The notes under the pieces were generated by a model that was not told the DNA's origin, made no database searches, and worked only from the letters and a program-made list of their open reading frames with translations. A DNA stretch of 36,395 nt from Eubacteriales bacterium (GTDB taxonomy: Bacteria > Bacillota > Clostridia > Lachnospirales > Lachnospiraceae): NCBI GenBank assembly GCA_030536755.1, contig JAUNPJ010000039.1:1-36395 (forward strand), given 5' to 3'. The stretch's first letter is position 1. Each line of letters begins with the position of its first letter. The position numbers and the translations under genes are program-made. This document shows positions 11,048-36,395 of this stretch, piece by piece.

Positions 11048-11077
11048 CTGCGAAATTTATTTTTTCTATTTTCCTGA

Positions 11078-11893
11078 AATTCCTGTTTGGCGGGGTGGTC
11101 GTATGTGCACCGCTTTCCTGGTCAACGGAACACTTCCCAACGGCAAAGTTTTCGGGTCGTTTACTTCCGGAGTTTTTCTACATGACCTGCACTCGCCCGG
11201 GAGGGATACCACCGCCCAGGCATGTCGATTTTCTTGCTTTTTCTGCGCCGCTTATGGATTGCTCTTGCCGCGAACTCGCGCTTTGCGCTCAAACAGTGCG
11301 TCGCGAGCAATCGCTATGCTCGAAAAATCTGCGAAAATTTCTCCAAATGCCTGGGCGGTGGTATCCCTCCCGGACAAGCACGGTCATGCGGAAAACTCCT
11401 ACATTTTCGCAAATGATGCAGATTTTGAAAAAACGTAACTGTTCAGCAGGTAATATCCCGAGACATACAAGCCAAAATCCATGAAATTGCATATGTTCTT
11501 CTGTCTGGTACACCTTTCAATAAAAGGCATTGTCGACAAAGTAGAACAGCCATTTGCACAGATTGATCACCTTCCAGAATCAAAGTGCAGATCTCTCCGC
11601 TTGTGCGGGCAGACCTTTGGCAGATTTTCGCAGGTTTGGCGAGCATAGCGATTGCTTTGAAAACACTGTTTGAGCGCAGGGCGCGAGTTCGTTTGAAAAG
11701 CAATCCATAGGCGGCGCAGCCAAACCAAGAAAATCAACAGGTTGCCTGCACAAGCGGAGAAATCGCACTTGATGTGGAAAGTCCTCCCTGTGCAAATGGC
11801 TGTTCGGAAGCCCAAAGCCAAACCCTGCCGTTGGGAAGTGTTCCGTTGACCAGGAAAGTGGTGCACATACGACCGACTCAACAAACAGGAAAT
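11078..11893. repeat. Composite palindromic repeat element, copy A (816 bp)
   Basis: This non-coding block lies between spoIIIAA and the helicase gene. Its two ends are inverted copies: AATTCCTGTTTG plus GTCGTATGTGCACC and some 40 further bases read inward from both 11078 and 11893. Each half is also paralogous to the other in inverted orientation (core ATGGATTGCT...GCGCTCAAACAGTG...AGCAATCGCTATGCTCG at about 11255-11320 and 11650-11715). Each half folds on itself: in the left half about 11196-11224 pairs with 11345-11375, and in the right half about 11575-11612 pairs with 11755-11780. The linker (11430-11500) holds a 24-base match to the element at 3.5 kb. Several short frames cross it, but none looks like a gene. 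Confidence 0.88.
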
Positions 11894-11904
11894 TTTCGGG
11901 AACA

Positions 11905-35851: not shown

Positions 35852-36395
35852 AATTCCTGTTTGTAGGGTTGTATGTGCACCGCTTTTCCCGTCACCGGAA
35901 CAGACTACCAACGGCAAGGTTGGGCTTGAGGGTTTCCGAACAGCCATTTGCACAGGGAAGGCTTTCCACATCAAGTGCGATTTCTCCGCTTGTGCAGGCA
36001 ACCTGTTGATTTTCTTGTTTGGCTGCGCCGCCTATAGATTGCTTTTCAAACAAACTCGCGCCCTGCGCTCAAACAGTGTTTTCAAAGCAATCGCTATGCT
36101 CGCCAAGCCTGCGAAAATCTGCCAAAGGTCTGCCCTCACAAGCGGAGAAATCTGCACTTTGATTGTGGAAGGTGATTAATCTGTGCAAATTGTCTGTTCT
36201 ATTTTGTTGGCTGCGCCTTTTGTTGAAAGGTGTACCAGACAGAAGAAACGTGCATCTAAATACACTTCAAACCTGTATCATTTGCGAAAACAAAGGAGTT
36301 TTCCACATGACCGCGCTTGTCCGGGAGGGATACCACCGTACAGGCATTTGGAGGAATTTTCGCAGATTTTTCGAGCATAGCGATTGCTCGCGACG
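35852..36395. repeat. Composite palindromic repeat element, copy B (cut by the window end)
   Basis: This is the same element as at 11078-11893, in the opposite orientation: 35852 onward matches the reverse complement of copy A from 11893 down to about 11291. The end AATTCCTGTTTG, the GTATGTGCACCGCTTT segment, the core GCGCTCAAACAGTG...AAAGCAATCGCTATGCTCG (about 36067-36105) and the GTCCGGGAGGGATACCACC segment are all present. About 210 further bases should lie beyond the window. The linker between arms (about 36240-36290) differs from copy A and lacks the 24-base match to the 3.5-kb element. I see no gene in this stretch. Confidence 0.88.

Follow-up and report, generated by a model that had tools for sequence, protein, structure and literature searches.

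A dispersed composite palindrome in a Lachnospiraceae genome and its hairpin apex motif in records from several phyla

Introduction

The usual explanations for dispersed palindromes are a resident Y1 transposase, in the case of REPs, and DDE transposons, in the case of MITEs. According to excerpts of PMC3733652, the REP superfamilies carry a GTAG or CGTC foot tag and have stems of 5-13 bp, and G-T pairing is frequent in the GTAG repeats. REPINs and BIMEs, as they are described in parts of PMC3116915, PMC3733652 and PMC2817692, are inverted doublets of imperfect palindromes in spacers that show compensatory stem changes and a patchy high copy number and that are non-autonomous, and the element that we describe here is like them in all of these respects. 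However, its units are longer, from about 260 bp in genome G440 to 816 bp in the window, and it is conserved at the apex and not at the foot, with one apex motif common to several phyla. The element is REPIN-like in architecture, but because the tag and the stem length do not fit, we have not filed it as a REPIN.

With MITEs the element shares terminal inverted repeats, dispersal and a lack of coding capacity. It differs from them in that the whole unit is a palindrome, the ends are not common between genomes and no partner transposon was found where we looked for one. A further possible analogy is with the ends of IS200/IS605, PATEs and integron attC sites, which are imperfect hairpins with unpaired conserved bases that are recognized as single-stranded DNA (set out in part in PMC6006769 and PMC4853749). 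Unlike these, the element was found without a linked enzyme, and its apex rather than its foot is conserved. In open-access papers, among them PMC2267715, we found neither the motif nor the family described.

Results and Discussion

The window, by which we mean the whole stretch of 36,395 nucleotides that was analysed, contains a composite palindromic element of 816 bp (positions 11078 to 11893), delimited by self-comparison, copies and folding. A sequence-only reading had described it as an inverted repeat at three levels, and self-comparison recovered all of them: the outer arms, the two paralogous halves and a separate stem in each half. The outer arms are terminal inverted repeats of 75 nt, the left one at 11077 to 11151 on the + strand, 88% complementary to the right one at 11820 to 11894 on the - strand, whose end is some 11 nt away from the stop codon of the helicase gene. 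They reach one base beyond 11078-11893 on each side (11077 and 11894), and in many copies the common sequence begins only about 19 bases further in. Hairpin 1, the self-folded left half (11192 to 11378, + strand), was defined by its stem, 11192-11228 with 11342-11378 (89%), and by its folding energy. It contains the conserved 112-nt core that is represented in models R1 and R2 (11227 to 11338, + strand; 1650-1761 of locus L001) and apex motif 1, which reads AACTCGC-n-GCTCAAACA on the + strand at 11273 to 11295 and has the loop AAA on the other strand. A linker at 11379 to 11543, which is variable among the copies, leads to hairpin 2, the self-folded right half (11544 to 11805, - strand), with stems 11544-11561/11788-11805 (100%) and 11590-11611/11743-11764 (91%). 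The core of hairpin 2 (11624 to 11735, - strand; L001 2047-2158, minus) is a copy of core 1 that is inverted and has diverged. Apex motif 2 is at 11667 to 11689 on the - strand, 215 nt after the stop of the upstream helicase gene, which is on the same strand; the other-strand loop of this apex is AGG. The paralogous arms between the halves, 11223-11338 and 11624-11739, are 116 nt long and 82% complementary, and the two core strings that had been named earlier are both present in each half, in inverted orientation. A second copy, cut off by the contig end, lies at 35854 to 36395 on the - strand, with 83% identity to positions 222-814 of the query and an apex motif at 36053-36075 (+).

The palindrome is far beyond chance, as its folding energies of -411 kcal/mol (+ strand) and -438 kcal/mol (- strand) correspond to z values of -19 and -39, respectively, against 20 shuffles each. 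Among the 93 twelve-base inverted seeds of the window that have a partner within 900 bp, 72 are in the element or in the copy at 35854-36395. The element is flanked by two minus-strand genes, spoIIIAA and one for a UvrD/Rep-family helicase that scores under the pcrA cut-off, and it starts about 11 nt past the helicase stop. The view that it holds no plausible gene and no transposase stands: the five ORFs across it gave no Pfam match above the curated cut-off (one weak match had an E value of 0.14), and a transposase was seen neither inside the element nor recurrently nearby.

In the host genome (G000, 145 contigs) there are 123 matches to the element, which we merged by hand to 40 places. Thirty of these 40 places are at contig ends, and the element seems to break the assembly. 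Because a broken copy can appear twice, the true copy number in the host is 25-40. Of the two congeners, G002 has many element matches. In G001, 266 bp separate the matched ends of the two flanking genes, versus 904 bp in the window; its spacer has a different, terminator-like hairpin beside the helicase, judged by eye and by folding, and the genome has no apex matches. At this locus G002 retains the helicase-side half up to a contig end (82% over the gene and half element), and its other side is rearranged. Taking these sequences together, the simplest reading is that the insertion at the window locus would predate the split between G000 and G002. Among the matches listed, named records of the same subfamily are contigs L156 (87%) and L191 (83%) of Lachnospiraceae MAG SUG1049. 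The 816-bp element had no match in plasmid and phage BLAST searches. In an alignment of 13 sequences, the fullest copies begin with AATTCCTGTTTG..TCGTATGTGCACC and end in its inverse, many begin only at TCGTATGTGCACC and several have internal deletions. The outer stems vary on both sides together, for example ACCACCGCCCAGGC versus ATACCAGCGCAGGC, with the partners matching.

The earlier reading had proposed a count of copies in related genomes and a look at paired substitutions in the stems. Model R1, built from ten cores, one of them from another genus (G027), matches 38 of the 299 genomes of the family at an E value of 1e-3 or lower, host included, often with several copies. From 54 loci we took 73 matches (61 distinct) for covariation, and two-sided changes occurred in 34 of 34 pairs in an alignment that was fitted to R1 and hence leans towards the model. 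Further copies thus exist, and their differences preserve the stems. In all, 93.4% of the 1981 cells pair, two-sided cells number 532 versus 117 (sd 10) for shuffled data, the pairing of slid versions is 29-49%, and the one-sided changes summed from the pair table come to 26. Model R2 is broader; at the level of the class it has matches in 22 of 391 genomes, the host among them, and the part that is common to all 32 rows of its alignment, as read by eye, is the apex.

This apex, AAACTCGC-n-GCTCARACAGT, is found at the tip of quasi-palindromes in records of several phyla. A scan of a genome contig collection with the pattern AAACTCGC-(0-14)-GCTCARACAGT gave at least 119 stretches. The listed records include Lachnospiraceae, Clostridium, Selenomonas, Pontibacter, Cellulophaga, Flavobacterium and Bacteroides, as well as Variovorax, Ralstonia, Nitrospirae, Deltaproteobacteria, Leptotrichia, Gastranaerophilales and others. 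Most of the listed matches cap a quasi-palindrome, and beside the motif 711 of 840 cells (seven positions per side, 120 matches listed) are Watson-Crick. Some listed matches without a stem are probably due to chance (e.g., L207 and L270) and some are related copies from one genome; both kinds were kept in the position, stem, G-U and loop counts given here and below, identical-flank duplicates being removed except in the 250-nt position count, and the many-phyla sets for the stem, G-U and loop counts include 7 viral loci. The viral collection has 7 stretches with the apex pattern, which is therefore rare there. In the host's own phylum the exact apex occurs in 15 of 398 genomes, with zero occurrences of the reversed pattern among the matches listed. 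With a looser pattern, the counts for apex versus reversed pattern are 72 versus 0 in G440, 26 versus 0 in G307, 11 versus 0 in G216, 9 versus 0 in G322, 4 versus 0 in G267, 31 versus 4 in G000, 44 versus 10 in G002 and 0 versus 0 in G001. A Ralstonia hairpin and a Bacteroides hairpin found no match in a plasmid BLAST. Both the dispersal and the shared apex are well supported. A class of non-autonomous DNA-hairpin elements is real, with one complete copy of such an element and a second, cut off, in the window.

The apexes also come in doublets. Among close apex pairs (less than 700 bp apart, all fetched loci), 23 are '+-', none is '-+' and 5 are same-strand; when both flanks are well paired the numbers are 19, 0 and 3, respectively. 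Eight of the 23 '+-' pairs belong to the window's own family, 3 to G440, 2 to G216 and 10 to named loci from Clostridium, Lachnospiraceae, Nitrospirae, Gammaproteobacteria, Bacteroides and Variovorax. From these pairs it follows that the composite architecture of the window element is recurrent across genomes, and the earlier suggestion that it was formed by inverted duplication fits this recurrence. A 2.6-kb inverted pair in G216 was considered as an autonomous element and rejected, as its ORFs look ordinary by eye.

We consider it somewhat probable that the window element is a non-autonomous mobile DNA palindrome, with an apex that can fold as single-stranded DNA, and that it is moved in trans by a putative unlinked enzyme. 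The single-stranded DNA apex, with its tandem G.A pairs under a GNA/GNNA-type loop, would nucleate a stable hairpin. A putative trans-acting enzyme, encoded elsewhere, would recognize this hairpin and move the unit into spacers behind stop codons, where the inserted unit could replace the terminator. Because its two hairpins pair inverted, the unit presents the same strand polarity from both sides. Recopying of one arm from the other might keep the two complementary; alternatively, they might stay so if movement is restricted to units that can fold. A wider version, in which there would be a cross-phylum class of mobile single-stranded DNA hairpins with one DNA-specific apex, a dedicated enzyme that is neither Y1 nor a reverse transcriptase and arms that are recopied at each move, is possible, and we put it forward tentatively. 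The apex could serve as a short bait sequence for finding a possible hairpin-recognizing enzyme.

A rather unlikely alternative is that the elements are ordinary MITEs, in which a DDE transposase acts on the terminal inverted repeats as double-stranded DNA and the hairpins and the apex are carried along as passengers or as cargo useful to the host. In its favour are the terminal inverted repeats found in G000, G267 and G440. In G440, a single contig that belongs to another family, TATAGGGTTTGTAATTCC, or a sequence close to it, forms with its inverse the ends of many units, and another subfamily has other ends (by eye). The TATAGGGTTTGTAATTCC-type ends have 193 matches at up to one mismatch. 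In 20 regions (L367-L386) they also flank 15 hairpins that have no apex match: six are 59 bp long, four are 139-140 bp, three are 260-262 bp, and the remaining two are 107 and 124 bp. Movement might therefore not require the apex. On the other hand, ends read by eye differ between genomes while the apex is common to them, the nearest paired ends enclose no ORF of at least 80 amino acids in 20 G440 regions (of the 193 end matches), and there is neither a recurrent transposase-like cluster, among the 40 largest ORF clusters near apexes, nor a consistent target duplication. As to the latter, 9-10 bp direct repeats are present at the ends in 2 of 4 units of G267 (by eye), none is clear in G000, and the TA at the G440 ends could be either repeat or target; no excision product was found either. 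The apex-less hairpins of G440 (59-262 bp) are possibly centre-deleted palindromes.

The search for a mobilizer included 935 ORFs within 4 kb of apexes, and among the 40 largest clusters no recurrent one looked transposase- or recombinase-like; the larger clusters look like ATPases, kinases and housekeeping enzymes. These ORFs, like those near the G216 and G131 pairs and the G440 ends, were judged by eye; the five ORFs across the element, the helicase and the L083 ORFs were judged from scans. A resident reverse transcriptase was rejected as a general mobilizer, since PF00078 has no match in 4 of the 14 bearing genomes (G440, G924, G750 and G1084); the other 10, including G000 and G307, have one or more matches. 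In G131, two inverted core hairpins that are 2.7 kb apart (L083, 1380-4130) have between them small ORFs and an ORF for a tyrosine recombinase (1800-2882). This is one case, and we have not generalized it to a mobilizer of the whole class. In G322 (L101-L111, for example at L106 and L107), inverted-arm sites resembling GTTTCATAAASTATASTTTTTGAAAC lie, by eye, at both ends of hairpin units about 330 bp long, and several of these units adjoin locus-specific arrays of palindromic tandem repeats of about 60 bp; at L106 the GTTTCATAAASTATASTTTTTGAAAC-like site recurs further on, as in a cassette array. We regard the L083 tyrosine recombinase and the recombinase-type bounding sites of G322 as leads only.

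The copies are natural material for the question of how the arms of a palindrome can drift in sequence and still remain complementary. Among the 17 units read of the 26 in G307, also a single contig, the core is common. Their outer arms, read by eye, are complementary in all but L312, although they vary from unit to unit, one related pair excepted. By eye, the units also have GAAAATTTT-like and CAAACACGTT blocks in common. The arms of units L091, L096 and L311-L324 mix such conserved blocks with variable but complementary blocks, which asks for an arm-copying process. The idea that the cores were inserted into pre-existing palindromes was rejected: at two G307 sites the congener spacers are without the unit, and 5 and 9 of these spacers, respectively, show neither the core nor the outer arms, a comparison that is weak, being made by eye at about 70-78% identity.

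The sequence-only reading had left the choice between a non-autonomous mobile element and a large structured RNA. Its mobile half is supported by the 40 host places, the matches in G002 and the unoccupied spacer in G001. The RNA half, according to which the hairpins would act in transcripts, as a 3'-UTR stability element, a 3'-end element or an antisense RNA, is disfavoured, and we consider it improbable. Rfam found nothing on the element or the apex (window, L001, L032 and 18 apex loci). In the stems flanking the motif (165 matches listed), 989 of 1155 positions are Watson-Crick, and with 24 G-T versus 33 A-C combinations (P = 0.29) there is no wobble excess on either strand beside the motif. 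The strand ACTGTYTGAGC-loop-GCGAGTTT allows the apex to form tandem G.A pairs, which in a pyrimidine-GA-purine context are sheared in DNA. Once further pairs are removed, the apical loop is G..A in 84 of 130 listed many-phyla matches, 19 of 45 Clostridia matches and 13 of 15 G307 matches, and a T..C loop is found in 1 of 130, 0 of 45 and 0 of 15, respectively. In the listed many-phyla set, 60 of 83 triloops are GNA and 15 of 26 tetraloops are GNNA, the latter with 10 GNYA versus 5 GNRA. In G440 only 1 of 25 loops is G..A, and the window's own loops, AAA and AGG, are outside the GNA/GNNA rule.

According to PMC4686876, the loop of stable DNA mini-hairpins is GNA or GNNA and sits on two or more G-C pairs; the Tm given for GCGAAGC is 78°C. 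Many of our apexes resemble such d(GCGNAGC) hairpins, as such loops on at least two G-C pairs occur in 75 of 130 listed many-phyla matches, 19 of 45 in Clostridia and 13 of 15 in G307, although the search pattern itself fixes two G-C pairs. They differ in that the mini-hairpins are short fragments, whereas our motif caps long genomic palindromes with tandem G.A flanks. From the composition of stems and loops, with a DNA-rule loop in the majority of the listed many-phyla matches, we favour a DNA-level reading of the hairpins.

Some features are nevertheless compatible with RNA. Tandem G.A pairs and G..A loops also suit RNA, and G-U, with the motif included, is commoner on the G..A strand: 8.3% versus 3.0% in 115 listed many-phyla matches (P = 5e-10) and 5.8% versus 3.6% in 51 Clostridia matches (P = 0.045). 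G-U counts in the folds of G440, which are from related copies, go in the same direction (268 versus 88). This G-U excess might be taken for an RNA signal, as might the better fold of the window element on its - strand. The elements also lean to gene 3' ends with a strand bias, which counts both for the RNA reading and for the mobile DNA palindrome. In the named listed loci, a gene that ends no more than 250 nt upstream shares the strand of the motif in 54 cases, versus 22 cases in which a gene on the opposite strand ends downstream (P = 3e-4). With a 400-nt limit in the listed many-phyla set, 3' ends face the apex in 65 + 38 cases and 5' ends in 35 + 39 (upstream + downstream neighbours), so that 103 of 177 are 3' ends (P = 0.035). 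Position behind a gene is not distinctive alone, since inverted repeats generally peak 50-80 bp behind bacterial stop codons, as reported in PMC13155455. In G440 the motif is on the strand of the upstream ORF in 35 of the 41 units that have one, and in G307 there is no orientation bias (5 versus 6). Judging by the 35 of 41 G440 units, the G..A-loop strand is usually opposite to the upstream gene, whose transcripts would carry the other strand, and this argues against a role in RNA. Replication was rejected as the cause of the orientation in G440, where we took the fork direction from dnaA near 1 kb and a terminus assumed to be opposite. Counted by hand, 12 units run against the fork and 11 of these have an upstream ORF; because 9 of the 11 share its strand, gene direction fits the orientation better than replication does.

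Quite improbable, in our view, is that these are REPINs or BIMEs in the strict sense, that is, hairpins of the REP type that depend for their movement on a REP-associated tyrosine (Y1) transposase in the same genome. The inverted doublets, compensatory changes and patchy high copy number are as for REPINs, in so far as these are covered by excerpts of PMC3116915. However, the Y1 transposase (PF01797) has matches in 14 of 19 core- or apex-bearing genomes versus 11 of 19 apex-negative ones (without a match to R1, to R2 or to the exact apex), G000 having one match, and no match in the single-contig genomes G440 and G307, which are rich in apexes (72 and 26, respectively), so that it was rejected as a general resident mobilizer. 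Moreover, by eye there is no unpaired GTAG or CGTC foot tag at the ends in G000, G440, G267 and G307, and the stems are far longer than the 5-13 bp given for REPs in the excerpts of PMC3733652.

That the elements are retained bidirectional transcription end-points, spread by recombination and kept by selection without transposition, is highly improbable, for although the element starts about 11 nt after the helicase stop, where G001 has its terminator-like hairpin, and the doublets show the same polarity from both sides, a terminator scan gave 3 sites versus 1.3 expected, the two inside the element being 5-pair stems and not the main hairpins, on which no intrinsic terminator (G+C-rich hairpin plus T run) was found, and dispersal with shared ends suggests movement.

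Other palindromes are found within the element and its copies. Those at L019 (G000) and L050 (G002) have a further small palindromic insertion inside the element arms, with ends TACAKCGAATMATAA. In the window itself, a 29-nt piece of the linker (11452-11480) matches a different palindromic repeat of G001 and G029 (L033, L034 and L037), which has ends like TAACTGTTCAG; this match suggests that unrelated palindromes are nested in one another.
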